This document shows positions 5,497 through 52,072 of a DNA stretch of 64,000 nucleotides, one piece after another. Location of the stretch: positions 352,160 through 416,159 of the forward strand of contig NZ_KE383993.1 in assembly GCF_000423245.1 (NCBI RefSeq). Direction: 5' to 3'. Under the pieces are notes generated by a model. It searched no databases. It was not told where the DNA came from and saw only the letters and a list, made by a program, of their open reading frames with translations. The position numbers and the translations under genes were made by a program. Source of the DNA: Ligilactobacillus ceti DSM 22408 (GTDB taxonomy: Bacteria > Bacillota > Bacilli > Lactobacillales > Lactobacillaceae). Position 1 is the stretch's first letter. Every line of letters begins with the position of its first letter.

Positions 5497-7344
5497 ATGG
5501 ATAGAGAGGATAGAGAGTTTACAGAGTATATAAAAAATAAGTTTTATGATAATTTATATAAAGCATCAGAACGATTTATTGAGGAAAATAAGGACACCTT
5601 TGATTTTGATTATCTTGATTTGCATACTATTGGTGAAATAGAAATGGAAGATGGTGAGATAAAGCAAATATGGATTCAAGAGGGTAGTGGTAATGAAATA
5701 AAATACGAGATAGCTTTTTCTACTGAGTTAATAATTTATGATGGTCATAGACATTATGATGATTCAGTAAATGAAGAAAAGTGGTTATTATTAAAATGTT
5801 CATCAACATTAGATGATAAACTATCAACTATAAAAATTTTATCTGTTGAAGAGTTTGTCTCTAAAAGTAGATTGGATAATTCATTAACACAAAGATTAAT
5901 ACCTATAATTAAGAATTCAGAATATGAAGAAATAGCAGATAAGATATTAAATAAGTATTATCCAGAAGCGTTGAAATATGGAACTGTTATATCTCCACAA
6001 ATATTAGCAACTAGACTGGGGCTTAAAATTGAAGAAAGAAAAATAGAAAAAGATGATTCTATTTTAGGTAGAATATATTTTGAGGATACAGAAGCAAATT
6101 TATATGATGAAGAAAAAGATGATTATACTTTTACTAAAATAGATAAAGACACTATTTTAGTAGATACATCAGTTAATCCACTTTTAAATATAGGTAGGTA
6201 CTATAACACAATATATCATGAGTGTGTTCATAAAATACTACATCAGAAAATATTTGAATTTCAGAAGATTTTAGATGAGGATGTTGAATCTATATGTACC
6301 ATCAAAGTCAATGGTGAGATTTCTCATACTGAAACTCATGCTAGAAAATTAGCACCAAAACTTCATATGCCTAAAAATAGAATTGTTAGAAGAGCTAATG
6401 AGCTTATTAAAGAACTGAAATATTTAAATGCAGCCAAATATGAAAATGAAGTAATGGAAGAGGTTATTTCTCAACTTGCACAAGAGTTTTATGCTTCTAA
6501 ACAATCGGTAAAAATAAGATTAGCAGAGTTAGGTTTTCAAAGTGCAATTGGTACATTTACTTATGTAGATAACCATTATGTTAAACCACATACTTTTAAA
6601 AAGGGCTCATTAAAAAATAATGAAACATATACTGCAAATATTAAAGATATAGCGTTTCAAAGTGTAATTAATCCAAGATTAAAGAAACAAGTAGAGCAAG
6701 GTAAGTATTTGTTTGTAGATAATCATCTTGTCTATAATTCAAAAAAATATTTACAGTCTACAGATGATGGATTGGAATTAACATCATATGCGTTATCACA
6801 CATGGATGAATGCTGTATTAAATTTAAATTAAATATCGTAAAAAGCAAATATATAAGCATAGATAATGTTTGCTTTTTAAGTCGATCAGTAGATAGTTTA
6901 TATACTTTTGAAGCCGTAGCTTGTGATGAGCAGTTTGAAAATATGTCAGATGAAGAACAAGGGCAACTTCTTAAAAATGAAATACAAGAAGAAATGAAGA
7001 TAGCTAATGAACTGACAAATAATCCAAAGCAAGTAATAAAAAGACTTTTGCAGTGGAGAGAAATGAGCCAAGTAGAATTATCTTCATTTAGTGAAATAGA
7101 TACAGAAACTATTAGTAGGATAGTTAATGGAAAAACTAATCCTAAAATTGAAACAGTTGTAAGACTTTGCTTAGCATTAAAGTTATCTCCAACTATTAGT
7201 ACACGAGTATTAGACATATTTGGATGTGCTATTAATCCTAATTTGTTTAACCATCAAGTTTATAGATTTGCATTACAAACTTTATATAAGCATGATTTTG
7301 ATGATATCAAAGAAAAATGTAAGGCTATGGGCGTTAATATATAA
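5497..7344 (+). CDS. ImmA/IrrE-type metallopeptidase with C-terminal HTH
   Basis: A 615-aa protein. A zinc-peptidase core is shown by HECVH at 241-245, with a downstream ETHARKLAPKLHMP segment matching the ImmA/IrrE third ligand and LLMP region. A Cro/CI-type helix-turn-helix lies near the C-terminus (about 512-570: QVELSSFSEIDTETISRIVNGK). This reverses the common order of N-terminal HTH then peptidase. ImmA-family enzymes cleave phage repressors and related regulators to trigger element induction. The gene lies 21 bp after hsdR and may be co-transcribed with the RM operon; a start with AGAGAGG 10 bp upstream was chosen. The role here is inferred. Confidence 0.85.
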   Translation: MDREDREFTEYIKNKFYDNLYKASERFIEENKDTFDFDYLDLHTIGEIEMEDGEIKQIWIQEGSGNEIKYEIAFSTELIIYDGHRHYDDSVNEEKWLLLKCSSTLDDKLSTIKILSVEEFVSKSRLDNSLTQRLIPIIKNSEYEEIADKILNKYYPEALKYGTVISPQILATRLGLKIEERKIEKDDSILGRIYFEDTEANLYDEEKDDYTFTKIDKDTILVDTSVNPLLNIGRYYNTIYHECVHKILHQKIFEFQKILDEDVESICTIKVNGEISHTETHARKLAPKLHMPKNRIVRRANELIKELKYLNAAKYENEVMEEVISQLAQEFYASKQSVKIRLAELGFQSAIGTFTYVDNHYVKPHTFKKGSLKNNETYTANIKDIAFQSVINPRLKKQVEQGKYLFVDNHLVYNSKKYLQSTDDGLELTSYALSHMDECCIKFKLNIVKSKYISIDNVCFLSRSVDSLYTFEAVACDEQFENMSDEEQGQLLKNEIQEEMKIANELTNNPKQVIKRLLQWREMSQVELSSFSEIDTETISRIVNGKTNPKIETVVRLCLALKLSPTISTRVLDIFGCAINPNLFNHQVYRFALQTLYKHDFDDIKEKCKAMGVNI

Positions 7345-7369
7345 AAATTTAAAAAATATGAAAAAATTA

Positions 7370-7392
7370 TCCACTTTCAGAGTGGATTTTTT
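7370..7392 (+). terminator. Palindrome with T-run after the ImmA-HTH gene
   Basis: A TCCACTT...GAGTGGA inverted repeat is followed by a run of T, fitting an intrinsic terminator for the RM/ImmA operon. The same core recurs as a perfect palindrome at 7472-7488, so it could also be an operator. Confidence 0.6.
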
Positions 7393-7471
7393 AAATGGAG
7401 GATATAGAGATATATCTTCTTTTTTTTATGCTTTAAAATAGCAAATCCTATATTTATAAGTAGTAAAGCGG

Positions 7472-7488
7472 TCCACTTTTAAAGTGGA
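7472..7488. promoter_or_regulatory. Perfect 17-bp palindrome (TCCACTTT-T-AAAGTGGA)
   Basis: An 8-bp arm, single-base centre perfect palindrome lies 102 bp after a near-identical one at 7370-7386. Both are just downstream of the HTH-peptidase gene and upstream of the structured leader. A repressor binding site is plausible, but no binding partner is shown by the sequence. Confidence 0.45.
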
Positions 7489-7545
7489 TCATGCTTTTTT
7501 AAAAGATTATAAAATTTAGATGTACTTAATAAAAAGGTACAAAAA

Positions 7546-7752
7546 TCTAGCGACAGTTCATAAATGAACAGCCTAGAAAAAAGTTTGTGTTATTGGCTCA
7601 TAGTCTGACGAGATTATGCCTGCAGCAATAACATAGACAAAAAATATTAAATAGTTAGCCTAGCAGGATGGTTAACCAGAAAGTGAGAATTCATTTTATG
7701 GTTAGCAAATATTTAATTTCCACTGTGGGTTCTTACTTTCTGAGAAGAAAGG
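7546..7752 (+). ncRNA. Structured leader RNA candidate upstream of sigma-like gene
   Basis: This non-coding stretch folds into a chain of helices found by eye: 7546-7550/7573-7577 enclosing 7556-7560/7565-7569; 7588-7595/7626-7633 enclosing 7599-7606/7611-7618 with loop GACG; 7654-7660/7670-7676; and a 13-bp helix 7677-7689/7730-7742 with one G-U pair. No long open frame covers it. It ends about 12 bp before the ATG of the sigma-like gene, so it may be a cis-regulatory leader or an independent phage RNA. I do not recognise it as a named RNA family. Confidence 0.6.
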
Positions 7753-7764
7753 ACGGACTCGCAG

Positions 7765-8286
7765 ATGAAGGCAGATCAAAAAAAGCAATATGTTATCCAA
7801 ATGGAGGTAACAAAAGAATCAATTAAGGATTTAGGAATTAATCCTAAAGAAGTTAGCTATCAAAAGGTAGGTAGTGAATATAAATTAGTTCATTTAATAA
7901 AAACAGATAATGAAGAGCTATATAAAGAATTCATGCAACCTGTCTGGAGAGAAGCAAAAGAAATAGAAAGAAAGAGAAATGCAGAAATGGAATGTAAAAA
8001 AACTGCTCTTTCATTAGATGAGCTTTATGAAAATTATAAATATGAAACACTAGATTATAATCAAGAATCAGCTCTTGAAAGACTAGAAAAAGAAGAATTG
8101 TTAGAAAAACTAAACAAATTAGTTGAAGAATTAGATGAGATAGACAAACAAATCTTTAAATATTATATGGAAGAAAAATCAGATAGTGAAATAGCTGATT
8201 TACTAGGAAGTAAAAGAACTACTGTTAATTATCAAAGACGCAGAATTTTCTCGAATTTAAAAAACTCCTTAGAAGATTATTTATAA
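7765..8286 (+). CDS. Sigma-70 region 4-like phage transcription regulator
   Basis: A 173-aa protein whose C-terminal third (about 115-170) reads as a sigma region 4 HTH: LDEIDKQIFKYYMEEKSDSEIADLLG, then a recognition-type helix with TTVNYQRRRIF. The N-terminal 90 residues are charged and unassigned; no region 2 is evident, so it is not a complete sigma factor. It lies directly downstream of the structured leader and upstream of the first replication-cassette leader. It may activate early phage promoters; this is inferred from position. Confidence 0.7.
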   Translation: MKADQKKQYVIQMEVTKESIKDLGINPKEVSYQKVGSEYKLVHLIKTDNEELYKEFMQPVWREAKEIERKRNAEMECKKTALSLDELYENYKYETLDYNQESALERLEKEELLEKLNKLVEELDEIDKQIFKYYMEEKSDSEIADLLGSKRTTVNYQRRRIFSNLKNSLEDYL

Positions 8287-8308
8287 AAAAATAAAAAATT
8301 TTCAAAAA

Positions 8309-8378
8309 TTTTTGTCACCTAGCTAATTTTTGTCCGTTAACAAGTGAAGGGGAGAAACACCACTTCAAAAATAACGGA
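8309..8378 (+). promoter_or_regulatory. Conserved cassette leader, copy 1 of first type
   Basis: After an A/T-rich AAAAATTTT tract comes GTCACCTAG and, 17 bp on from its start, GTCCGTTAACAAGTGAAGGG. The same blocks at the same spacing recur at 12581-12637. In this copy TCCGTTA (8333-8339) pairs with TAACGGA (8372-8378) around an AAGTG/CACTT helix (8342-8346/8361-8365), giving a two-tier hairpin ending at the ribosome binding site. It is probably a phage promoter or leader that sets expression of the replication cassette. Confidence 0.6.
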
Positions 8379-8393
8379 AAGGAGGTAAGCCAA

Positions 8394-8549
8394 ATGACAA
8401 AAAATATAGACGAAAAGATATGCGATGTATTACTTGAAATAAGTAATAAGACCAAAAGCATAGCTGACAATCTAAAAAAGTTAAATAAGTTGAAAGGAGA
8501 AGAAAATGGGAAAAGTCAAAGATCTATCTGTAATCGCAGAAGAACTTAA
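8394..8549 (+). CDS. Small 51-aa protein opening the replication cassette
   Basis: An ATG preceded by a strong AAAGGAGG begins a 51-aa frame (MTKNIDEKICDVLLEISNKT) that overlaps the following gene by 44 bp in another frame. It is lysine-rich, helical in appearance and has no family I recognise. The strong ribosome binding site supports translation. The long overlap makes part of the C-terminus suspicious, although coupled overlapping genes are common in phages. Confidence 0.45.
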   Translation: MTKNIDEKICDVLLEISNKTKSIADNLKKLNKLKGEENGKSQRSICNRRRT

Positions 8550-8796
8550 AAAATGTAGTCAAACTTTAGATTTAATAACATCAGATTTATTAAGTTTAAC
8601 CAGTGGAAAAGCTATTAAAGAAGAGGAAGAAATACCAACACTAGAAGATGTAAGAAAAGTACTAGCTGAAAAAAGCAAACTAGGTTTTACTCCACAAATA
8701 AAGGAAATAATAAATTCTTTTAATGCTAATAAGTTAAGTGAAGTTAATCCATCAGATTATCTAGAACTTTTAAATAAAGTAAGGGGGCTAGAATAA
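8506..8796 (+). CDS. Conserved phage 96-aa protein of the YqaJ cassette
   Basis: A 96-aa protein beginning with a helical ELKKCSQTLDLI segment and ending in a compact domain (VRKVLAEKSKLGFTPQIKEI, NKLSEVNPSDYLELL). It is homologous to the 95-aa product at 36835-37122, which occupies the same place in the second cassette. The C-terminal part resembles small domains often found beside single-strand DNA binding or annealing functions, but no function is proven. Its stop overlaps the YqaJ start by one base, so the two are coupled. Confidence 0.75.
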   Translation: MGKVKDLSVIAEELKKCSQTLDLITSDLLSLTSGKAIKEEEEIPTLEDVRKVLAEKSKLGFTPQIKEIINSFNANKLSEVNPSDYLELLNKVRGLE

Positions 8797-9767
8797 TGGA
8801 AAAACCAAGTAGTGTAACAGAAAATAGACAAAGATACATCGGTGGTTCAGATATTCCAATAATTATGGATATATCTGCATTTAAAAGTAGAAGTCTACTA
8901 ATGAAAGAAAAAGCAGGTTTTAGTAAAAATACTTTTAAAGGTAATGAATACACAGAATATGGAAATATCCTAGAACCGATGATAAGAGATTATATCAATG
9001 AAGAATTTAGAAAATCTAGTCCATTTAAGGAAGGATACTTTATAGGTGATTTAAGTCCAAATGAAACAGACAAATTAAAGTTTAGATGTAATGTTGATGG
9101 AATAAATGATAGTGAAATACTAGAAATTAAAACTACATCAAATATTAAATCAGACATTAAGGATTATAAATACTATCTAGTGCAACTGCTCTTTTATATG
9201 ATAAATGCTAAAAAAGAAAAAGGAATGCTAGCTATCTATGAAAGAACTACCTTTAATATTCCAAAACAAATCGATAAAGATAAATTAAAAATCTATCATA
9301 TTGATTTAAAGGATTATCAGAAACTTGCAACAGAAATATTAGAAAGTGTAGATAAGTTTCAAGAAGACTTAATAGCCTTAAAGAACAATCCAGAAATGAC
9401 AGATGAAGATTTTATAAATCCAATCATTGTAGATAACTCAAAAAAAGTAATAGCCTTAGAAAATAAGTTAAAAGGTTTAAAAGAAGTAGAACAAGAATTA
9501 AAGAAAACCAAAGAAGACTTATTTGAAGCTATGAAAAAATACAATGTTAAGAAATGGAAAACATCAAATGGTGTAACTATTTCAAGAGTTGATGAAACTA
9601 CCAGTCAAAGAGAAGTGATTGACACTAAAAAATTAAAGGCAGATGAGCCTACTATCTATAACAAATATATGGAAGTAAAAACATCAAAAAGAAAAGGCTA
9701 TGTAAGAATAGCCATTGATGAAAACAATGTAAATCAAGAATTTAATAAAATAAAAGGAGAAAATTAA
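8796..9767 (+). CDS. YqaJ-like viral recombinase/exonuclease
   Basis: A 323-aa nuclease of the YqaJ/lambda-exonuclease fold. The N-terminal RYIGGSDIPIIM motif, GNEYTEYGNILEP, the acidic DGI segment and EIKTTS (ExK) followed by YLVQLLFYM are the family hallmarks. The enzyme resects DNA ends for phage recombination and replication, normally with a single-strand annealing or binding partner, here probably the next gene. The C-terminal third (about 215-323) is charged and helical. A second copy lies at 37115-38080. Confidence 0.92.
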   Translation: MEKPSSVTENRQRYIGGSDIPIIMDISAFKSRSLLMKEKAGFSKNTFKGNEYTEYGNILEPMIRDYINEEFRKSSPFKEGYFIGDLSPNETDKLKFRCNVDGINDSEILEIKTTSNIKSDIKDYKYYLVQLLFYMINAKKEKGMLAIYERTTFNIPKQIDKDKLKIYHIDLKDYQKLATEILESVDKFQEDLIALKNNPEMTDEDFINPIIVDNSKKVIALENKLKGLKEVEQELKKTKEDLFEAMKKYNVKKWKTSNGVTISRVDETTSQREVIDTKKLKADEPTIYNKYMEVKTSKRKGYVRIAIDENNVNQEFNKIKGEN

Positions 9768-9768
9768 A

Positions 9769-10314
9769 ATGAAGAATAATAAATGCAAAGTAATAACAGG
9801 TGTAAATACAAGATTATCATACTTTAATGGTTGGGAGCCTGTATCAATTAACGGTGGTAAAGAAAGATACTCTGTATCTGTTCTAATTCCAAAAGAAGAT
9901 AAAGAAACATTAGACCAAATAGAGAAGGCAGTAGATGCTGCAATTGAAGAAGGAATGAGTAAGTTTGGAAATAAGAAACCAAACAAACAAGCAATTAAAC
10001 TACCACTTCGTGATGGAGATATTGAAAGAGATGATGAAGCATATAAAGGACATTACTTCATCAATGCTAATTCAATTACACCACCACAAATTGTAGATAA
10101 AAATGTCAAACCAATATTAGATAGATCAGAAGTCTACTCAGGGTGCTACGGACGAGTATCACTTAACTTCTACGCTTTTAACTCTAACGGTAATAAAGGT
10201 GTAGCTTGTGGACTTGGAAATATCCAAAAAATAAAAGACGGAGAGCCATTAGGTGGCAGAACAAATGCTACTGATGAATTTACAACTCTAGAGTCTGACG
10301 ACTTTTTAGCATAA
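9769..10314 (+). CDS. DUF2815 single-strand DNA binding-like protein
   Basis: A 181-aa DUF2815 protein: TGVNTRLSYFNGWEP near the start, LPLRDGDIERDDEAYKGHYF in the middle and an aromatic GCYGRVSLNFYAFNSNGNKG segment. DUF2815 proteins sit between YqaJ nucleases and family A polymerases in Firmicutes phages and are thought to bind single-stranded DNA. It starts one base after the YqaJ stop. The homologue at 38083-38637 is nearly colinear. Confidence 0.88.
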   Translation: MKNNKCKVITGVNTRLSYFNGWEPVSINGGKERYSVSVLIPKEDKETLDQIEKAVDAAIEEGMSKFGNKKPNKQAIKLPLRDGDIERDDEAYKGHYFINANSITPPQIVDKNVKPILDRSEVYSGCYGRVSLNFYAFNSNGNKGVACGLGNIQKIKDGEPLGGRTNATDEFTTLESDDFLA

Positions 10315-10324
10315 GGAGATGGAT

Positions 10325-10504
10325 ATGAAAGAATTAACAGAAGTAATGAACTTAATAGCAAATATTGGAATGGCTACTTTTCTTATATCAATTAACATAT
10401 GTCTTTGTTGGGCTATGATTATTGGATATAAAGAACAAAAAGCAAAAGAAAAAGCAAGAAAGCTAAAACAGTTAAAAGAAAGACGACTAAGAAGGTCAGA
10501 ATAA
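10325..10504 (+). CDS. Small single-pass membrane protein
   Basis: A 59-aa protein (from MKELTEVM) with one hydrophobic segment (about 8-33, IANIGMATFLISINICLCWA) and a very basic C-terminal tail. The ATG at 10325 is preferred because AAGGAG lies 6 bp upstream; an earlier in-frame ATG at 10319 touches that site. The second cassette has an unrelated-looking 47-aa membrane protein in the same slot (38648-38791). Function unknown. Confidence 0.6.
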   Translation: MKELTEVMNLIANIGMATFLISINICLCWAMIIGYKEQKAKEKARKLKQLKERRLRRSE

Positions 10505-10518
10505 ATAAGCATATAAAG

Positions 10519-10540
10519 TGGCAAGGATTAGTCTTTGCCA
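10519..10540 (+). promoter_or_regulatory. TGGCAA/TTGCCA hairpin before polymerase gene
   Basis: A 6-bp stem (10519-10524/10535-10540) lies upstream of the polymerase ribosome binding site. The same hairpin, with GTGGCA/TGCCAC arms, occurs at 38804-38828 before the second polymerase, so it is conserved despite divergence around it. Possible mRNA-level control. Confidence 0.4.
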
Positions 10541-10563
10541 TCTTTATTTTAAAAGGAGTAACA

Positions 10564-12513
10564 ATGGAAAAAATAAAAACACTGAGTTGTGATATTGAGA
10601 CATTTTCTAGCATAAATTTAGGTAAAAGTGGAGTTTATAAATATTGCGAGAGTAAAGATTTTGAAATCTTACTATTTGCATATTCAGTAAATAACACTGA
10701 TGTAAAAGTAATAGATTTAGCAAGTGGAGAAAAACTGCCACAAGAAATAATAGAGGCACTAAAAAGTGATAAAGTTATTAAATGGGCTTTTAATGCTAAC
10801 TTTGAGAGAATTTGTCTATCAAGATATTTAGGTATGAAAACAGGAGAATATTTAAATCCTAAATCGTGGAGATGTTCTATGGTTTGGTCTGCATATATGG
10901 GACTGCCTTTATCTCTTCAAGGTGTAGGTGCAGTTTTAGGATTAGATAAACAAAAATTAGCAGAAGGTAAAGATTTAATAAGGTATTTTTGTATACCTTG
11001 TAAGCCGACTAAAACTAATAATCAAAGAATAAGAAATTACTATTATCACGATAAAAACAAATGGGAGCTTTTTAAGGAATATAACAAGCGAGATGTTGAA
11101 GTAGAAATGAAGATACAAGAAAAACTAAAAAACTTTAAAGTACCTGACTTTATTTGGAAAGAATATGAATTAGACCAAATTATAAATGATAGAGGCATAA
11201 AAATAGATAAGCAGTTTGTCTTATCTGCAATTGAGATTAACAGGATATCTAGGTTTAGAAATATGAATGAGTTAAAAGAAATAACTAATCTTGAAAATCC
11301 TAATTCAGTACTGCAAATAAAACAGTGGCTTAAAGAAAATAATGTAGAAACAGATAGCCTTGATAAAAAGACAGTAATAGAACTTTTAAAAACATCAAAT
11401 AATAAAGTAAGTAGAGTTTTAGAACTTAGACAAAAACTATCTAAATCATCAATCAAAAAATATGAGGCTATGATAAATGCAGTTTGTTTAGATGATAGAT
11501 GTAGAGGTATGTTTCAATTTTTAGGAGCAAACAGAACTGGGCGTTGGAGTGGAAGACTGGTTCAACTTCAAAACTTAAAAAGAAACTCAATGTCAGATTT
11601 AAAACAGGCACGAGATTTAGTTAAAGATAAAAATATAGAGGCATTAGATTTACTTTATGAAGATATACCAAATGTACTATCTGAACTTATACGAACGGCA
11701 TTTATACCAAAAGAAAACACTACATTTTTTGTAGCAGATTTTAGTGCTATTGAAGCAAGAGTTATTGCTAATCTTGCAGGAGAAAAATGGAGAGAAGAAG
11801 TCTTTAAAAACGGTGGAGATATTTACTGTGCATCAGCTAGTCAGATGTTTAATGTTCCAGTAGAAAAACATGGAGTAAATGGGTATTTAAGACAAAAAGG
11901 TAAGATTGCAGAACTTGCACTTGGATATGGCGGGTCTGTTGGAGCTTTGACTGCTATGGGTGCTCTTGATATGGGGCTTAAAGAGGAAGAATTAAAACCA
12001 TTAGTTGATGCTTGGAGAGATGCTAATCCACATATAGTTGAGTTTTGGTGGGCAGTAGATAAAGCAGTTAAGGATTGTATAAAGCAAAGAATAACAACCA
12101 AAACTCATGGCATTAAATTTATTTATAAAAGTGGGATACTTTTTATAGAACTACCAAGCAAAAGACGACTTGCATATATAAAACCAAAAATAGAAATAAA
12201 CCAATATGGTAGTGAATCTGTTAGTTATGAGGGAATAGGAGTAGGAAAGAAATGGGATAGACTTGAAAGTTATGGTCCAAAGTTTGTAGAAAATATAGTG
12301 CAAGCAATCGCAAGAGATTTATTAATGTTTGCTATAACAAATTTAAGTGATTTAGAAATAGTAGCCCATATTCATGATGAATTAATTATTGAAGGAGATA
12401 AAAGTTTATCACTAGATAAAATTTGTAAGGATATGAGCATGTTACCTGATTGGAATAAGACTTTATTACTTAATGCCGATGGTTATACTTGTGAGTTTTA
12501 TAAGAAGGATTAA
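10564..12513 (+). CDS. Phage DNA polymerase, family A
   Basis: A 649-aa replicative polymerase. DIETFSS at about residue 9-15 opens a 3'-5' exonuclease-like domain. Family A polymerase motifs follow: RTGRWSGRLVQLQNL (palm/fingers), DFSAIEARV (motif A, about 390-400), RQKGKIAELALGYGG (motif B) and HDE at 604-606 (motif C). It lacks the 5' nuclease domain of host Pol I, as is normal for phage enzymes. It ends the first replication cassette and is followed by a strong terminator. The copy at 38849-40798 has identical length and looks roughly three-quarters identical by eye. Confidence 0.95.
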   Translation: MEKIKTLSCDIETFSSINLGKSGVYKYCESKDFEILLFAYSVNNTDVKVIDLASGEKLPQEIIEALKSDKVIKWAFNANFERICLSRYLGMKTGEYLNPKSWRCSMVWSAYMGLPLSLQGVGAVLGLDKQKLAEGKDLIRYFCIPCKPTKTNNQRIRNYYYHDKNKWELFKEYNKRDVEVEMKIQEKLKNFKVPDFIWKEYELDQIINDRGIKIDKQFVLSAIEINRISRFRNMNELKEITNLENPNSVLQIKQWLKENNVETDSLDKKTVIELLKTSNNKVSRVLELRQKLSKSSIKKYEAMINAVCLDDRCRGMFQFLGANRTGRWSGRLVQLQNLKRNSMSDLKQARDLVKDKNIEALDLLYEDIPNVLSELIRTAFIPKENTTFFVADFSAIEARVIANLAGEKWREEVFKNGGDIYCASASQMFNVPVEKHGVNGYLRQKGKIAELALGYGGSVGALTAMGALDMGLKEEELKPLVDAWRDANPHIVEFWWAVDKAVKDCIKQRITTKTHGIKFIYKSGILFIELPSKRRLAYIKPKIEINQYGSESVSYEGIGVGKKWDRLESYGPKFVENIVQAIARDLLMFAITNLSDLEIVAHIHDELIIEGDKSLSLDKICKDMSMLPDWNKTLLLNADGYTCEFYKKD

Positions 12514-12566: not shown

Positions 12567-12580
12567 TTTTTTTGAGAAAT

Positions 12581-12650
12581 TTTTGTCACCTAGACGTTTT
12601 TTGTCCGTTAACAAGTGAAGGGGAAAAGAGCCCACTTCAAAAATTTAAAA
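12581..12650 (+). promoter_or_regulatory. Conserved cassette leader, copy 2 of first type
   Basis: This repeats the GTCACCTAG and GTCCGTTAACAAGTGAAGGG blocks of 8309-8378 with the same 17-bp offset, then keeps the AAGTG/CACTT helix (12613-12617/12633-12637). The outer TCCGTTA arm has lost its partner here. It precedes the antirepressor and downstream operon, so both early operons share one leader type. Confidence 0.6.
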
Positions 12651-18042: not shown

Positions 18043-18474
18043 ATGAAATCAAAAGAATATTTTAGAAAAATTAATTATTTAAAAACAGCAATTGAATTTA
18101 AATTAGAAAAGGCAGAGTTCTATAAAGAACTAGCACAAAGTGCAGGTGGGACAGTTTATAGTGATATGCCAAAACCACCAAAAGGAAGTGTAAGAAGTCC
18201 TATGGAAGAGGCTATGATTAAAGCATTAGATTTAGAAATTGAAGCTAAAAAAGATGAAGAAGAACTAAGTAGACTAACAGTTGAGGCATTGAATTTTATA
18301 GAAAGAATAGAAGATCTGAAACTGCAAAAGATATTAATACTTAGATATTTAAAGGAGTTAAATTGGTATAAAATTCAAAGAACTATGGATTATAGTGAGA
18401 GTGCAATTCATAAACTTCATAACAAAGCTTTAGCTAAAATGGATGTGATAATTAATGAAAAATACAAAAAGTAG
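18043..18474 (+). CDS. DUF1492/ArpU-like late transcription regulator
   Basis: A 143-aa protein with a helical N-terminal part and a C-terminal sigma region 4-like HTH (about 95-138: LQKILILRYLKELNWYKIQR, then SESAIHKLHNKALAKM). This matches DUF1492 and the ArpU/RinA group that activates late phage genes just before the packaging module. It is followed by a promoter-like stretch and the HNH/terminase genes, which fits that job. Confidence 0.8.
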   Translation: MKSKEYFRKINYLKTAIEFKLEKAEFYKELAQSAGGTVYSDMPKPPKGSVRSPMEEAMIKALDLEIEAKKDEEELSRLTVEALNFIERIEDLKLQKILILRYLKELNWYKIQRTMDYSESAIHKLHNKALAKMDVIINEKYKK

Positions 18475-31641: not shown

Positions 31642-32673
31642 ATGGCAAATAAAAATGAATTAGTGAATTCTAGTGCAGCGGAATATTTAACTTTTATAGC
31701 ATCAACTGGAGATAATAAAGAACAATTTGAAGTAAGATATGAAGATGAGAATATATGGCTAACACAGAAAATGATGAGTGAGTTATATGGAATATCAATA
31801 CCAACTATTAATGAGCATTTAAAAACACTATTTAGTGATGGGGAAATAGAAAAGGCAACTATTAGGAAATTCCTAATAGTTCAAAAAGAGGGAAATAGAG
31901 AGGTTAAAAGGCAAATCGACCACTATAATTTAAGAGCCATTATAGCAGTAGGTTTTAAAGTTAACAATCAAAGAGCAGTTCAATTTCGTAAATGGGCAAA
32001 TAAAATTGTAAAAGATTATACTATCCAAGGTTGGACTATGGATGTTGAAAGAATTAAAAAAGGTCATATGTTTACTGATGAATATTTTGATAGACAACTT
32101 CAACTTATTAGAGAAATTAGACTATCTGAAAGAAAATTCTATCAAAAAGTAACAGACCTTTACACATCAGCATTTGATTATGATAAAAACGCTCAAACTA
32201 CAAGGTTGTTTTTTCAAACTGTACAAAACAAACTACACTATGCAGTTCATAGACATACTGCATCAGAATTAATTGTTGAAAGAGCAGATGCAAACAAAGA
32301 ACATATGGGACTTGAAACATGGGAAAATGCACCTGACGGAAAGATACTAAAAGCAGATGTAACTATTGCTAAAAATTATCTAAACAAAGAAGAAATGAAT
32401 TTTTTAGAAAGAATAGTATCAATGTATTTAGATTATGCAGAATTACAAGCAGAAAGAAAAATACCAATGAGCATGGAAGATTGGTCTAAAAAGCTAGATG
32501 GTTTTATTGAATTTAATGGCAGAGAAATCTTGATGGGTGCAGGAAAAATAAGTGCAGAACAAGCAAAACTTCATGCAGAAACACAATATGAAAAGTATCG
32601 CATTATTCAAGATAATTTATTTGTATCTGATTTTGATAAATTTATTTTAGAAAGTAAAAAACTAGATGAATAG
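31642..32673 (+). CDS. RhuM family protein (moron)
   Basis: A 343-aa RhuM-type protein. The N-terminal part (about 28-75) has IWLTQKMMSELYGISIPTIN, an HTH-like segment, then IDHYNLRAIIAVGFKVNNQR and FRKWANKIVKDYTIQGW. The rest is helical with HRHTASELIVERADANK. RhuM proteins occur as cargo on islands and phages; the name came from a Salmonella island locus, and the molecular role is unsettled. It splits the usual chaperone-tape measure adjacency and has its own promoter, so it is an inserted cargo gene. Confidence 0.9.
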   Translation: MANKNELVNSSAAEYLTFIASTGDNKEQFEVRYEDENIWLTQKMMSELYGISIPTINEHLKTLFSDGEIEKATIRKFLIVQKEGNREVKRQIDHYNLRAIIAVGFKVNNQRAVQFRKWANKIVKDYTIQGWTMDVERIKKGHMFTDEYFDRQLQLIREIRLSERKFYQKVTDLYTSAFDYDKNAQTTRLFFQTVQNKLHYAVHRHTASELIVERADANKEHMGLETWENAPDGKILKADVTIAKNYLNKEEMNFLERIVSMYLDYAELQAERKIPMSMEDWSKKLDGFIEFNGREILMGAGKISAEQAKLHAETQYEKYRIIQDNLFVSDFDKFILESKKLDE

Positions 32674-36834: not shown

Positions 36835-37122
36835 ATGGAAAAAGAAAAACTTGTAACACTCGCAAATGAGCTAAAAAAGTGTAGCAAAATGTTGGAACAA
36901 ATCGCTAGCAAACTTTTAGCAGAAGAAGAAACAAAAAGCGAAAAAGTATCATCTGTTTCATTTGAAGGGCTAAGAGGCATTTTAGCTGATAAGTCAAGGA
37001 AAGGTCATACCAAGGCTATCAAAGAAATCATCCTATCACTAGGTGTAAATAGGCTTAGTGAAGTAAAGAAAAGCGATTATGATTCTTTGCTTGAAAAAGT
37101 AAAGGAGCTAGAAGATGAATAA
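36835..37122 (+). CDS. Conserved 95-aa cassette protein, second copy
   Basis: The homologue of the 96-aa product at 8506-8796: ANELKKCSKMLEQIASKLL at the N-terminus and FEGLRGILADKSRKGHTKAI with NRLSEVKKSDYDSLLEKV at the C-terminus. The linker between the two parts differs, but the C-terminal module aligns closely. It overlaps the YqaJ gene by 8 bp, where the first copy overlaps by one base. Confidence 0.75.
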   Translation: MEKEKLVTLANELKKCSKMLEQIASKLLAEEETKSEKVSSVSFEGLRGILADKSRKGHTKAIKEIILSLGVNRLSEVKKSDYDSLLEKVKELEDE

Positions 37123-38080
37123 AAGCATTAGCGTCACAGAAAAAAGACACCGCTATATTGGTGGGAGTGATATTCCGATTCTTATGGAGATTTCATTTTT
37201 CAAATCAAGAATGGAGCTTTTAAAAGAAAAAGCAGGGCTTGTAAAGAATGAATTTCAAGGAAACGAGTATACCGAGTATGGGAATCTCTTAGAACCAAAG
37301 ATAAGGGAATATATCAATCAGTCATATAAAGGCGATCCTTTTAAGGAAGATAGCTTTATCGGAGTATTAAGTCCAAGCGATGGAGAAAGTCTAGACTTTA
37401 GGTGCAATGTTGATGGCATAAATAAAGATAGCGTTTTGGAAATCAAAACAACATCTAATGTCAAAACAAAACTTGAAGACTATAAGACCTATCTTGTGCA
37501 ATTACTCTTTTACATGGTAAATGCAAAAAAGCACAAAGGAATCCTTGCAGTTTATGAAAGAAGCGACTTTTCTATTCCAGAGACTATTGATGAAGCAAAA
37601 CTTAAAGTCTATGAAATCAAACTATCTGATTATGAAGAGATGGTAGATGAGATTTTAGAAAGTGTAGCTAGGTTTCAACAAGACCTAATGGCACTAAAAG
37701 AAAATCCAAGTATGACGGAAGAAGACTTTATGCCTGCTCTTATCGTAGAAAACTCAAAAAAGATTGTAGCTTTGGAAAACCAGCTAAAGGGATTTAAGAA
37801 GCTAGAAGCAGAGTTAAAAGCAGTTAAAGAAGAACTCTTTGAAGCAATGAAAGCGTATGGCGTTCGTAAATGGTCAACGCCTAATGGAGTCAGCTTTTCA
37901 AGGGTAGATGAAACACAAAGTATTAAAAAGGTTATTGATGAAGAGTCTCTAAAAGTATCTCATCCAAGAATCTATAAAAAGTACTTGATGGAAAAAGTAT
38001 CTAAGCGTAAAGGCTACGTGAGGATAACAATAAACGAAAACAATGTAAACAACGAATTCAAAGTAGAAAAAGGAGAATAA
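37115..38080 (+). CDS. YqaJ-like viral recombinase, second copy
   Basis: A 321-aa YqaJ nuclease with RYIGGSDIPILM, GNEYTEYGNLLEP, CNVDGINKDSVLEIKTTS and YLVQLLFYMVNAKKHKG, so the catalytic acidic residues and ExK are intact. It is diverged from the 323-aa copy at 8796-9767 but alignable end to end. It is a complete gene and may still be functional. Confidence 0.92.
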   Translation: MNKSISVTEKRHRYIGGSDIPILMEISFFKSRMELLKEKAGLVKNEFQGNEYTEYGNLLEPKIREYINQSYKGDPFKEDSFIGVLSPSDGESLDFRCNVDGINKDSVLEIKTTSNVKTKLEDYKTYLVQLLFYMVNAKKHKGILAVYERSDFSIPETIDEAKLKVYEIKLSDYEEMVDEILESVARFQQDLMALKENPSMTEEDFMPALIVENSKKIVALENQLKGFKKLEAELKAVKEELFEAMKAYGVRKWSTPNGVSFSRVDETQSIKKVIDEESLKVSHPRIYKKYLMEKVSKRKGYVRITINENNVNNEFKVEKGE

Positions 38081-38082
38081 TT

Positions 38083-38637
38083 ATGAAAACAACTAATCTA
38101 AACACAAAGGTTATCACTGGAGTAAACACAAGACTAAGCTATGCCAATGTATGGGAAGCAGTCTCAATCAATGGAGGAAAAGAAAAATACTCTGTATCTG
38201 TTCTTATTCCAAAGGACGATAAGAAAACGCTAGACGCTATTGAAAAAGCAGTAGATGCTGCAATCGAAGTAGGTATCGCCAAGTTTGGAGGTAAAAAGCC
38301 TAATAAAGTTGCTATCAAACTTCCACTCCGTGATGGAGATATTGAGCGTGATGATGAAGCGTATAAAGGACATTATTTCTTAAATGCTAATTCAGTAACG
38401 CCACCTCAAATCGTGGATAAGAATGTTGATCCTATCCTTGATAAATCAGAAGTCTATTCAGGTTGCTATGCAAGGGTGTCACTAAACTTCTACGCTTTTA
38501 ACTCTAACGGTAATAAAGGAGTTGCTTGCGGACTTGGTAATATCCAAAAGATTAAAGATGGAGAAATGCTAGGTGGAAGAAGTAATGCATTTGATGATTT
38601 CACATCATTTGAAGGTGATGACGATTTTCTAGCATAG
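38083..38637 (+). CDS. DUF2815 protein, second copy
   Basis: A 184-aa DUF2815 protein with TGVNTRLSYANVWEAVSING, LPLRDGDIERDDEAYKGHYF and GCYARVSLNFYAFNSNGNKG. It follows the YqaJ stop by 2 bp, as in the first cassette. Several internal stretches are identical in protein to the 181-aa copy, including the two long motifs quoted in part here. Confidence 0.88.
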   Translation: MKTTNLNTKVITGVNTRLSYANVWEAVSINGGKEKYSVSVLIPKDDKKTLDAIEKAVDAAIEVGIAKFGGKKPNKVAIKLPLRDGDIERDDEAYKGHYFLNANSVTPPQIVDKNVDPILDKSEVYSGCYARVSLNFYAFNSNGNKGVACGLGNIQKIKDGEMLGGRSNAFDDFTSFEGDDDFLA

Positions 38638-38647
38638 GGGGATAGAT

Positions 38648-38791
38648 ATGTATCAGTTTATGGATCACATTAACACTGTTTTTATCTTTTGCTTCGTGAT
38701 AGCTCTAGCCACCATCATTTGGGTGGATCTGCTTAAAAGTTTTATCAGATTCTTAAAAGAAAAGATGAATAGACGAAGAATGCAAAGGTAA
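38648..38791 (+). CDS. Small membrane protein, second cassette
   Basis: A 47-aa protein (MYQFMDHINTVFIFCFVIAL) with one hydrophobic segment followed by a basic tail ending in RRRMQR. It sits in the slot of the 59-aa membrane protein of the first cassette. The two share topology and charge but little sequence. A weak GGGG site precedes the ATG by about 8 bp. Function unknown. Confidence 0.55.
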   Translation: MYQFMDHINTVFIFCFVIALATIIWVDLLKSFIRFLKEKMNRRRMQR

Positions 38792-38803
38792 GAAAAGGGA
38801 TAA

Positions 38804-38828
38804 GTGGCAGAGAGTTAATCTTTGCCAC
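38804..38828 (+). promoter_or_regulatory. GTGGCA/TGCCAC hairpin before second polymerase
   Basis: A 6-bp stem (38804-38809/38823-38828) stands at the same place as the hairpin at 10519-10540. Conservation in both cassettes argues for a function in mRNA stability or polymerase expression. Confidence 0.4.
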
Positions 38829-38848
38829 TTAACTTTAAGGAGGAATAT

Positions 38849-40798
38849 ATGGAAGTAATAAAAACACTCTCAGTTGATATTGAAACTTTTTCTAGCACAA
38901 ATCTATCAAAGTCGGGTGTATATAAATATGCGAGTAGTCCAGACTTTGAGGTGCTTCTTTTTGCATACTCAATAAACCACGGAGCAGTAAAAGTAGTTGA
39001 CCTAGCAAGTGGAGAAAAAATACCAACAGAAATAATAGAAGCTATTAAAAGTGACGAGGTTATCAAGTGGGCTTTTAATGCAAACTTTGAGCGTATCTGT
39101 TTGTCCCATCATCTTGGCATGAAGGTGGGAGAATATTTAAGTCCTGCGTCTTGGAGATGTTCTATGGTGTGGTCTGCTTATATGGGGCTACCATTATCCC
39201 TTGAAGGAGTGGGAGCGGTTCTTGGTCTTGATAAACAAAAACTAGGAGCAGGAAAAGACCTCATCAGATATTTTTGTATTCCTTGTACGCCAACCAAAAC
39301 AAATGGAAATAGAAAAAGAAACCACTACTATCACGATAAGGAAAAATGGGAGCTTTTTAAGAAATATAATAGGCGTGATGTTGAGGTAGAAGTTAGATTG
39401 CAAGAAAAACTTAAAAATCATCCTGTCCCAGATTTCCTATGGGAAGAATATAAATTAGATCAAATCATCAATGATAGAGGGATAAAGATTGATAGAGATT
39501 TTGTTACATCAGCAATCAAGGTAAACGATATATCAAGAAAAGAATGTATGAACGAACTATCAAGGCTAACTAATCTTGAAAATCCAAACTCAGTCATGCA
39601 GATGAGAAGCTGGCTAAAAGAACATGGCATAGAAACAGAAAGCCTCGATAAAAAAGTGGTCAACGAGCTTCTTGATAAGGTTGATGAAAAAGCAAGAAAG
39701 GTACTACTTTTAAGGCAAAAAATATCAAGGTCATCAATTAAAAAATATGAAGCTATGATAAACGCTAGCTGCACTGATGATAGATGCCGTGGTATGTTTC
39801 AATTTCTAGGAGCAAATAGAACGGGTAGATGGAGCGGAAGACTTGTCCAACTTCAAAACCTTAAAAGAAACTCCATGACGGATCTAAAAGAGGCACGAGA
39901 ACTTGTAAAAATGCAAAATCTTGAAGCCCTAGATTTACTATATGAAGATATACCAAATACTCTATCAGAACTTATCCGTACTGCCTTTATACCAAAAAAG
40001 GATACACTCTTTTTTGTAGCAGACTTTAGTGCTATTGAAGCAAGAGTCATAGCATATCTTGCAGGAGAAGAATGGAGAAATCAGTCTTTTAGAGAAGGTA
40101 AAGACATTTATTGCATGAGTGCCTCACAGATGTTTAATGTTCCAGTAGAAAAACATGGTGTTAATGGAGAATTAAGACAAAAAGGAAAGGTCGCAGAACT
40201 TGCCTGTGGATATGGCGGATCGGTTGGAGCCTTAAAAGCTATGGGGGCTCTCGATATGGGACTTACTGAAGAAGACCTAAAACCGCTAGTAGATTCATGG
40301 CGTAAAGCAAATCCAAATATAGTAAATCTTTGGTGGAATGTAGATAGAGAAATAAAAAGAGCAATCAAAACGAAAAAAGAAACAGAAACTAACGGCATAA
40401 AGTTTTTATATAAAGGAAAGGCTTTATTTATAGAATTGCCGTCAAAAAGAACACTCACATACATCAAGCCCGAAATAGAAATCAACGCTTATGGAAGTGA
40501 ATCAATAACTTATCAAGGAATCGGAGCAAATAAGAAGTGGGAGAAAATAGAAAGCTACGGTCCAAAGTTTGTAGAAAACATAGTGCAAGCCATATCAAGA
40601 GACTTACTAATGGAAGGCATAAGGAATTTAGCTGATTTAGATATAGTAGCCCATGTTCATGATGAGATTATCTTAGAAGCAAAAGATAATATCTCTCTTG
40701 ATGAAATCTGTAAGAAGATGAGCAAAGTTCCAGATTGGTGTAAAGATTTATATCTAAATGCAGATGGATATATTTGCGAGTTTTATAAAAAAGATTAA
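38849..40798 (+). CDS. Phage DNA polymerase, family A, second copy
   Basis: A 649-aa polymerase of the same length as the one at 10564-12513. SVDIETFSSTNLSKSG, RTGRWSGRLVQLQNL, DFSAIEARVIAYLAG, RQKGKVAELACGYGG and the final HDE are intact. The ATG at 38849 follows AAGGAGG; an in-frame ATG at 38822 has no such site. Both polymerases appear functional, so one mobile element carries two replicative polymerase genes. Confidence 0.95.
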   Translation: MEVIKTLSVDIETFSSTNLSKSGVYKYASSPDFEVLLFAYSINHGAVKVVDLASGEKIPTEIIEAIKSDEVIKWAFNANFERICLSHHLGMKVGEYLSPASWRCSMVWSAYMGLPLSLEGVGAVLGLDKQKLGAGKDLIRYFCIPCTPTKTNGNRKRNHYYHDKEKWELFKKYNRRDVEVEVRLQEKLKNHPVPDFLWEEYKLDQIINDRGIKIDRDFVTSAIKVNDISRKECMNELSRLTNLENPNSVMQMRSWLKEHGIETESLDKKVVNELLDKVDEKARKVLLLRQKISRSSIKKYEAMINASCTDDRCRGMFQFLGANRTGRWSGRLVQLQNLKRNSMTDLKEARELVKMQNLEALDLLYEDIPNTLSELIRTAFIPKKDTLFFVADFSAIEARVIAYLAGEEWRNQSFREGKDIYCMSASQMFNVPVEKHGVNGELRQKGKVAELACGYGGSVGALKAMGALDMGLTEEDLKPLVDSWRKANPNIVNLWWNVDREIKRAIKTKKETETNGIKFLYKGKALFIELPSKRTLTYIKPEIEINAYGSESITYQGIGANKKWEKIESYGPKFVENIVQAISRDLLMEGIRNLADLDIVAHVHDEIILEAKDNISLDEICKKMSKVPDWCKDLYLNADGYICEFYKKD

Positions 40799-51767: not shown

Positions 51768-51828
51768 TGGGAACCACTTTTGCACTCTGGGTCAAAATAT
51801 GTTAAAATATGAAATAATAATTAAAAAC

Positions 51829-52072
51829 GCAGACGGAAAAAAGTAGATTATTAAAAGTTACAGGGAGGAACGACGAGATTGAGAACGTTCTAACTAGAGA
51901 TAATTGAAATTCACTTCTTGAGTTGTCGCTGGGATTTATGATTATCATAATGAATAGTGGACCGGTCAGTATGATCGTTAACAAACTTAGAGTGTTATTT
52001 AGTGTACATCACTAAATAAAATTAGGGTGGTACCGCGATGCCTCGTCCCTTTTTAAGGGATGGGGCATTTTT
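51829..52072 (+). promoter_or_regulatory. T-box riboswitch of the pheST operon
   Basis: A tRNA-sensing leader. The T-box sequence AGGGTGGTACCGCG is at 52024-52037 and pairs with the tRNA acceptor end. A 12-bp terminator (52040-52051/52055-52066) with a T-run follows. Stem I contains the usual GACGAGATTGAGAACG segment near 51870. TTC codons at 51910 and 51915 could serve as the phenylalanine specifier; the exact one is unsure. Uncharged tRNA-Phe would prevent termination. This leader fills most of the gap between the hxlR-like gene and pheS. Confidence 0.95.

Follow-up and report, generated by a model that had tools for sequence, protein, structure and literature searches.

The leader RNA analyzed here lies on the + strand of the window (the whole 64,000-nt stretch of Ligilactobacillus ceti DSM 22408 DNA under study), between a phage-type HTH gene and a sigma-like gene at the head of a prophage early operon. 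It was found as a single copy in its genome. The surrounding features were as follows.

5497-7344, + strand, phage-type HTH gene upstream of the leader
7369-7387 and 7470-7490, + strand, two terminator-like hairpins between the HTH gene and the leader
7765-8286, + strand, sigma-70 region-4-like gene of 173 aa (Pfam PF08281; PHROG 13787)
8506-12513, + strand, rest of the early operon (small ORF, YqaJ-like recombinase, ssDNA-binding protein, DNA polymerase)

Three terminator-like sites were found compared to 0.3 expected in shuffles, and no sigma-70-type promoter-like site was recognized on the + strand between 7300 and 8500. The product of 7765-8286 matched PF08281 with 26.8 bits (cut-off 25.7) and PHROG 13787 with an E-value of 8.7e-15, bearing out the original prediction of a region-4-only sigma-like gene just downstream. 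Close homologues of this protein were confined to the same or a sister genome, and searches for distant sigma homologues with peptide patterns were unsuccessful. Within the operon, the small ORF belonged to PHROG 408, the ssDNA-binding protein was of the Enc34 type (DUF2815), and the YqaJ-like recombinase occupied the place of DUF2800; the same gene order was found in locus L154, which carries a true DUF2800 RNA (Rfam RF02960). The repeated early leaders said to follow the sigma-like gene were present at 8299-8356 and 12570-12627, and were 88% identical. These 58-nt repeats lie upstream of ORF 8394 and of a Bro-N/KilAC antirepressor gene (12673), respectively. Each contains two direct copies of TTTTTGTC spaced 18 bp apart, an arrangement found nowhere else in the 64-kb window, and these copies are candidate targets for the sigma-like protein.

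Folding of 7546-7752 confirmed a strongly structured RNA of about 200 nt, with a minimum free energy (MFE) of -64.5 kcal/mol compared to -39.6 (sd 4.2) on average for shuffled sequences, a z-score of -5.87, and none of 200 shuffles equally stable. The complementary strand had no excess structure (z -0.54), and an antisense RNA was rejected on this value. The helices listed in the original prediction, including one of 13 bp, were all present in the MFE fold of this interval. Their joint formation was true of 7546-7752 but not of the full leader, in which the 13-bp helix was lost; the listed helices are not all mutually compatible there, as 15 extra nucleotides gave a different MFE fold. Likewise, the structure within the proposed extent stood but its 3' end did not, stopping 15 nt before the start codon (7765-7767). 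Extended to 7767, the RNA from 7546 had an MFE of -71.0 kcal/mol and was refolded relative to 7546-7752, and the ∼185 nt from 7583 to the start codon had an MFE of -62.7 kcal/mol (z -6.5). An ORF across the leader (7668-7826) was dismissed as a mechanical ORF with no support. The elements of the RNA were as follows.

7546-7577, + strand, upstream hairpin, separate and outside the conserved core (MFE fold)
7583-7638, + strand, P1 hairpin, 7583-7595 with 7626-7638 (MFE fold; pairs kept in the model alignment)
7599-7605 with 7612-7618, + strand, P1b inner helix (MFE fold)
7619-7623 with 7663-7667, + strand, putative pseudoknot, CCUGC with GCAGG, positioned as the covarying pseudoknot of the relatives
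7646-7652 with 7711-7717, + strand, core outer helix, AUUAAAU with AUUUAAU (MFE fold of 7583-7767)
7670-7706, + strand, P2/P3 stem-loop, 7670-7677 with 7700-7706 and inner helix 7679-7686 with 7690-7697 (MFE fold)
7677-7689, + strand, segment Y, CAGAAAGUGAGAA, alternative-state partner of X
7730-7742, + strand, segment X, UUCUUACUUUCUG, partner of Y or of the Shine-Dalgarno (SD) arm
7723-7764, + strand, SD-sequestering hairpin, -20.0 kcal/mol alone, with the SD AAAGGA at 7748-7753

Once the leader reaches the start codon, the MFE fold replaces the 13-bp helix with the hairpin over the SD. The 13-bp helix consists of Y paired with X and represents a competing state with the SD freed; the change in MFE fold upon addition of 15 nt indicates that X is common to two exclusive partners, Y and the SD arm. 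In the SD-closed state, segment Y is engaged by the P2/P3 stem-loop. Over 7546-7790, the SD-closed state was computed at -74.1 kcal/mol and the Y:X state at -66.4 kcal/mol, and by MFE the 3'-truncated leader favored Y:X while the full-length leader favored a hidden SD. The SD is buried in a stable hairpin, and the 5' arm of that hairpin can pair elsewhere in competition; P-values were 0.0005 for the Y:X complementarity (2000 shuffles) and 0.003 for the SD hairpin (300 shuffles).

A search of Rfam at the gathering threshold returned no family for the leader. The claim that it belongs to no catalogued RNA family was formally correct, yet a permissive search revealed a diverged relative of RF02960 at 7585-7737, scoring 21.5 bits where Rfam's gathering threshold is 60.2 (model positions 1-158 of 158, E 0.28 in 1161 bases searched against 4227 families), and thus short of Rfam's score for membership. 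Other sub-threshold matches nearby (csRNA, snoR110, AbsR25 and others) were low-complexity or unrelated. DUF2800 RNA was reportedly introduced in an earlier paper. Rfam classes it merely as 'Cis-reg', and, judging by title and abstract, none of the papers searched that mention DUF2800 seemed to concern the RNA itself.

The relationship was also recovered with two covariance models from which the window RNA was left out. Model R1, built from 12 class I (RF02960-like) RNAs and scored with filters off at every position of the 4 kb from 5500 to 9500, aligned end to end (1-207 of 207) with 7580-7767, placing AUG on AUG, at 20.1 bits (E 7e-5); the second-best score in this interval was 6.8 bits, and R1 did not detect the RNA when run over 64 kb with default filters. 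Model R2, built from 24 relatives more diverse than those of R1, found it in 64 kb under default filtering, scoring 23.0 bits (E 1.4e-4; runner-up 12.2 bits), in a best alignment that stopped at 7742 and skipped the SD hairpin. Structured leaders of other classes reached at most 13.1 bits with R1 and 15.0 bits with R2, so that general structure could supply part of the score.

With regard to the consensus structure of RF02960, all 11 aligned P1 pairs were standard in the window RNA, mostly with both sides changed relative to the relatives, and the inner core helix was kept. The outer core helix was only partly kept, its missing part being stood in for by 7646-7652/7711-7717, and one sub-helix of 4 pairs was absent. 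The likeness extends to the P1 hairpin, an A-rich linker, a core stem with CC.GAAA..GAGAAUUC, and the position of the pseudoknot. It extends also to the genomic place, since both RNAs belong to early replication operons, ahead of the DUF2800/DUF2815 genes and directly before a sigma-like gene. In contrast, the CUGAUCA loop and GCUCAA motifs of RF02960 were not conserved in the window RNA, being replaced by CUGACGAG and CCUGC, and the pairing partners of the SD were rewritten. The Rfam model, at 158 nt, ends ahead of the SD hairpin. The window RNA is a strongly diverged relative of DUF2800 RNA and not a member by Rfam's cut-off, because the score and the two motifs fail while structure, the window-free models, genomic context and the downstream gene agree. 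Comparisons of the blastn type with phages and plasmids gave short chance matches only, and the sole other copy, in IMGVR_UViG_2523231024, was identical. As the collections hold no close homologue, covariation in the window RNA depends on distant relatives.

Relatives were collected from 80 viral loci obtained through DUF2815 homologues, and a pattern search plus tblastn added more RF02960-type RNAs along with Ca. Heliusvirales phages. A search of 398 genomes of the phylum yielded a true RF02960 member (138 bits), in the gene order RNA, 175-aa sigma-like gene, small ORFs, DUF2800, DUF2815 and DNA polymerase. Past the 158 nt of the Rfam model, this member had an SD-hiding hairpin (CCUCCGUUU...AAACGGAGG), whose 5' arm CUCCGUUUCG also complements the conserved CGAAACGGAG within the model. 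The sub-threshold L155 (33.6 bits) had the same dual complementarity with different bases. A similar match, L092 (31.2 bits), was in an AT-rich context, seemingly arose by chance, and was left out.

Counting both strands, genomes and viral contigs contained 78 matches to the pattern CCGAAACGGAG-N42-72-CTCCGTTTCG. At 57 of these, X was closely followed by an SD and start codon, at a distance of 23-29 nt in nearly all cases, and a sigma-like ORF adjoined 51 of about 57 selected places; several of the remaining places were near a contig end, and a number of the matches fell in unrelated genomes. The leaders at L246:7935-8130 and L247:6837-7043 were RF02960-like, with the CCGAAACGGAG/CTCCGTTTCG pair and an otherwise different core, and are perhaps another subtype.

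An HMM of the sigma-like proteins retrieved several dozen genes, and nearly all of their leaders had a hairpin over the SD at the 3' end and, upstream of it, a segment that competes for pairing. The layout of the window leader recurs before sigma-like genes in many phages. These leaders fell into several sequence classes, comprising class I, class II (L024 and others, with the more distant L157 and L160), and the additional classes L012/L028/L070, L079/L169, L162 and L040/L087/L089. Class II leaders are conserved, structured RNAs of ∼190 nt before sigma-like genes, without an Rfam match, and could be proposed as a new family. They share with the window leader the order of genes, the sigma-like gene, the hairpin over the SD and a competing Y segment, but differ in core sequence, and their similarity to the DUF2800 models was only weak, at 14-15 bits for three of them. 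Hairpins over the SD also occurred at more remote sigma-like genes (L174, L176, L178 and L188), which belong to genomes of the same order and probably sit on mobile elements.

Compensatory changes, the check put forward with the original prediction, were present in the relatives. In alignment A9, with 24 RNAs and 93.4% of cells paired, 25 pairs had changed on both sides compared to 16.8 in shuffles (0 of 500 as high), and the cells with both-side changes numbered 138 compared to 40. All 12 P1 pairs and all five P1b pairs covaried in the relatives. The pseudoknot, first seen in the alignment and absent from the nested structure printed by cmscan, was paired in 97.9% of the relatives' cells and had both-side changes in four of six pairs, with variants including GCUCAA/UUGAGC, UUCAG/CUGAA, AUCCAGU/ACUGGAU, UUCCAG/CUGGAA and ACCCA/UGGGU; on its own, the 5-bp CCUGC/GCAGG match of the window RNA is weak, having a chance of about 0.09. 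The invariance of Y and X in A9 arose by construction, as most members were picked by a pattern that fixes both segments. In the R1 alignment, made with a structure lacking Y:X, 110 of 112 Y:X cells paired compared to 32-69 of 106-116 in slid controls, and the window RNA kept nine of nine alignable Y:X pairs, two of them changed on both sides (C-G to G-C and G-C to U-A). A MAFFT alignment (A6) set the X arm of the window RNA one base off and was discarded in favor of the model-based alignment.

The full-length MFE fold hid the SD and lacked Y:X in 17 of 17 leaders examined. Some 3'-truncated form adopted the Y:X fold in 13 of the 17, although in two of these at just two successive 3' ends. Complementarity of Y and X exceeded that of shuffles with a combined Fisher P of 9e-11 for 13 leaders, some of them related, and was not significant in L163 and L063. 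Among the gene starts of these loci, the window leader had the highest combined switch score (31.4), the 791 others reaching 28.0 at most, and five of the top background starts (L087, L040, L089, L050 and L048) were themselves sigma region-4 genes in the equivalent place, L089 being assigned from its near-identity to L087.

Modeled on these computed folds, on the three-way complementarity, and on its conservation and relation to DUF2800 RNA, the leader is probably a cis-acting, two-state translational switch in the 5' leader of the prophage sigma-like gene, a reading to which we assign a probability of roughly 0.7. It would consist of a core domain (P1 hairpin, pseudoknot and P2/P3 stem) and a 3' platform. 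With the core folded, Y would be held and X could engage the ribosome-binding site, keeping translation off; with the core open, the 13-bp Y:X helix would form and free the ribosome-binding site, and the sigma-like protein would be made, through which the downstream early genes could then be made. That the RNA switches in vivo, does so in this direction, and is set by a bound ligand or protein is what we infer. Translational riboswitches form a general class whose 3' platform sequesters the SD. The window leader is like them in having an aptamer-like core and a 3' platform that would hide or free the SD, but they serve metabolic genes, whereas here the gene is an early phage gene and the ligand putative. 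Among the three roles first suggested for the RNA, a riboregulator of the sigma-like protein is the best supported, given the SD of the sigma gene in the 3' hairpin and the recurrence of the layout before sigma-like genes in phages. An anti-termination RNA or a stand-alone phage RNA found no such support, as the window leader runs straight into the start codon and has no U-tract.

Several alternatives have to be weighed against a signal-responsive switch. The folded core might be bound by the sigma-like protein, or by another phage or host protein, that represses translation, comparable to the protein-mediated repression of ribosomal-protein operons as opposed to the small molecule of a riboswitch. 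Such autoregulation is the strongest competitor, if still unlikely: very different phages keep the leader joined to the sigma-like gene, as if the product were the ligand, but related proteins occur with different core classes (L157 combines a class II leader with a protein closely resembling that of L154, whose leader is a DUF2800 RNA), and no RNA-binding domain was recognized beyond region 4. A kinetic timer appears rather improbable. It would need no ligand, as new RNA would pass through the open Y:X state, be translated briefly, and then settle into the more stable SD-closed fold. The maturation-gene leader of phage MS2 has such a transient open state followed by a stable SD-closed fold, and the window leader may resemble it in this respect, but its core is much larger and covarying. 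The order Y, X, SD fits a timer, as does Y:X being the MFE fold of some truncated RNA, and not of the finished RNA, in 13 of the 17 leaders; the four others lack this intermediate, two more have it only across two 3' ends, the MFE of a truncated RNA differs from a kinetic simulation, and a large covarying core with a pseudoknot exceeds what a timer needs.

Many RF02960-type members have a U-tract directly after the GC-rich hairpin (e.g., CGGAGGACUUUUUU-AUG), as in a transcription attenuator with the X:SD hairpin acting as intrinsic terminator and Y:X as antiterminator. A mechanism of this kind may hold for such class I members, not for the window leader, where it is very unlikely: the AUG directly follows its 3' hairpin with no U-tract, and L106, L155 and class II leaders also lack the tract and yet keep the hairpin with the SD. 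Finally, the leader could be an unrelated structured RNA that resembles DUF2800 RNA by convergence, consistent with its score below the Rfam threshold, the lack of primary-sequence similarity detectable by blastn, and the 13-15 bits reached by structured leaders of another class. We consider this improbable, given 20-23 bits with two models, one of them aligned end to end and finishing on the AUG, and the shared gene order, sigma-like family (PHROG 13787), P1 pairs and pseudoknot place.

Under the preferred reading of a two-state translational switch, DUF2800 RNA gains a likely target, the sigma-like gene directly downstream, together with an added pseudoknot and a switch testable by point mutation. 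More tentatively, and with the odds somewhat against it, the window RNA might belong with DUF2800 RNA and several uncatalogued leaders to one superfamily of phage regulatory RNAs, structured domains that sense a common infection or induction signal and gate translation of a sigma-like factor whose gene opens the early operon of Heliusvirales-like phages and related phages of Firmicutes. The translational switch itself would mean that, in phages of several Firmicutes hosts, a large folded and possibly signal-sensing RNA gates early gene expression by way of the ribosome-binding site for a sigma-like factor; the sister leaders of equal layout without an Rfam match widen the class.

Elsewhere in the window, a second prophage fragment (36835-40798) carried small ORF, YqaJ-like, DUF2815-like and DNA polymerase genes in unchanged order, and neither a copy of the RNA nor a sigma-like gene was found in this segment (36.4-41 kb). 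Another sigma region-4-like/ArpU-like phage regulator gene was located at 18043-18471, and ORF 31642-32673, amid prophage tail genes, is presumably RhuM-like from its appearance. A T-box leader (Rfam RF00230, 99.7 bits) was present at 51821-52053, upstream of a gene reading as pheS.
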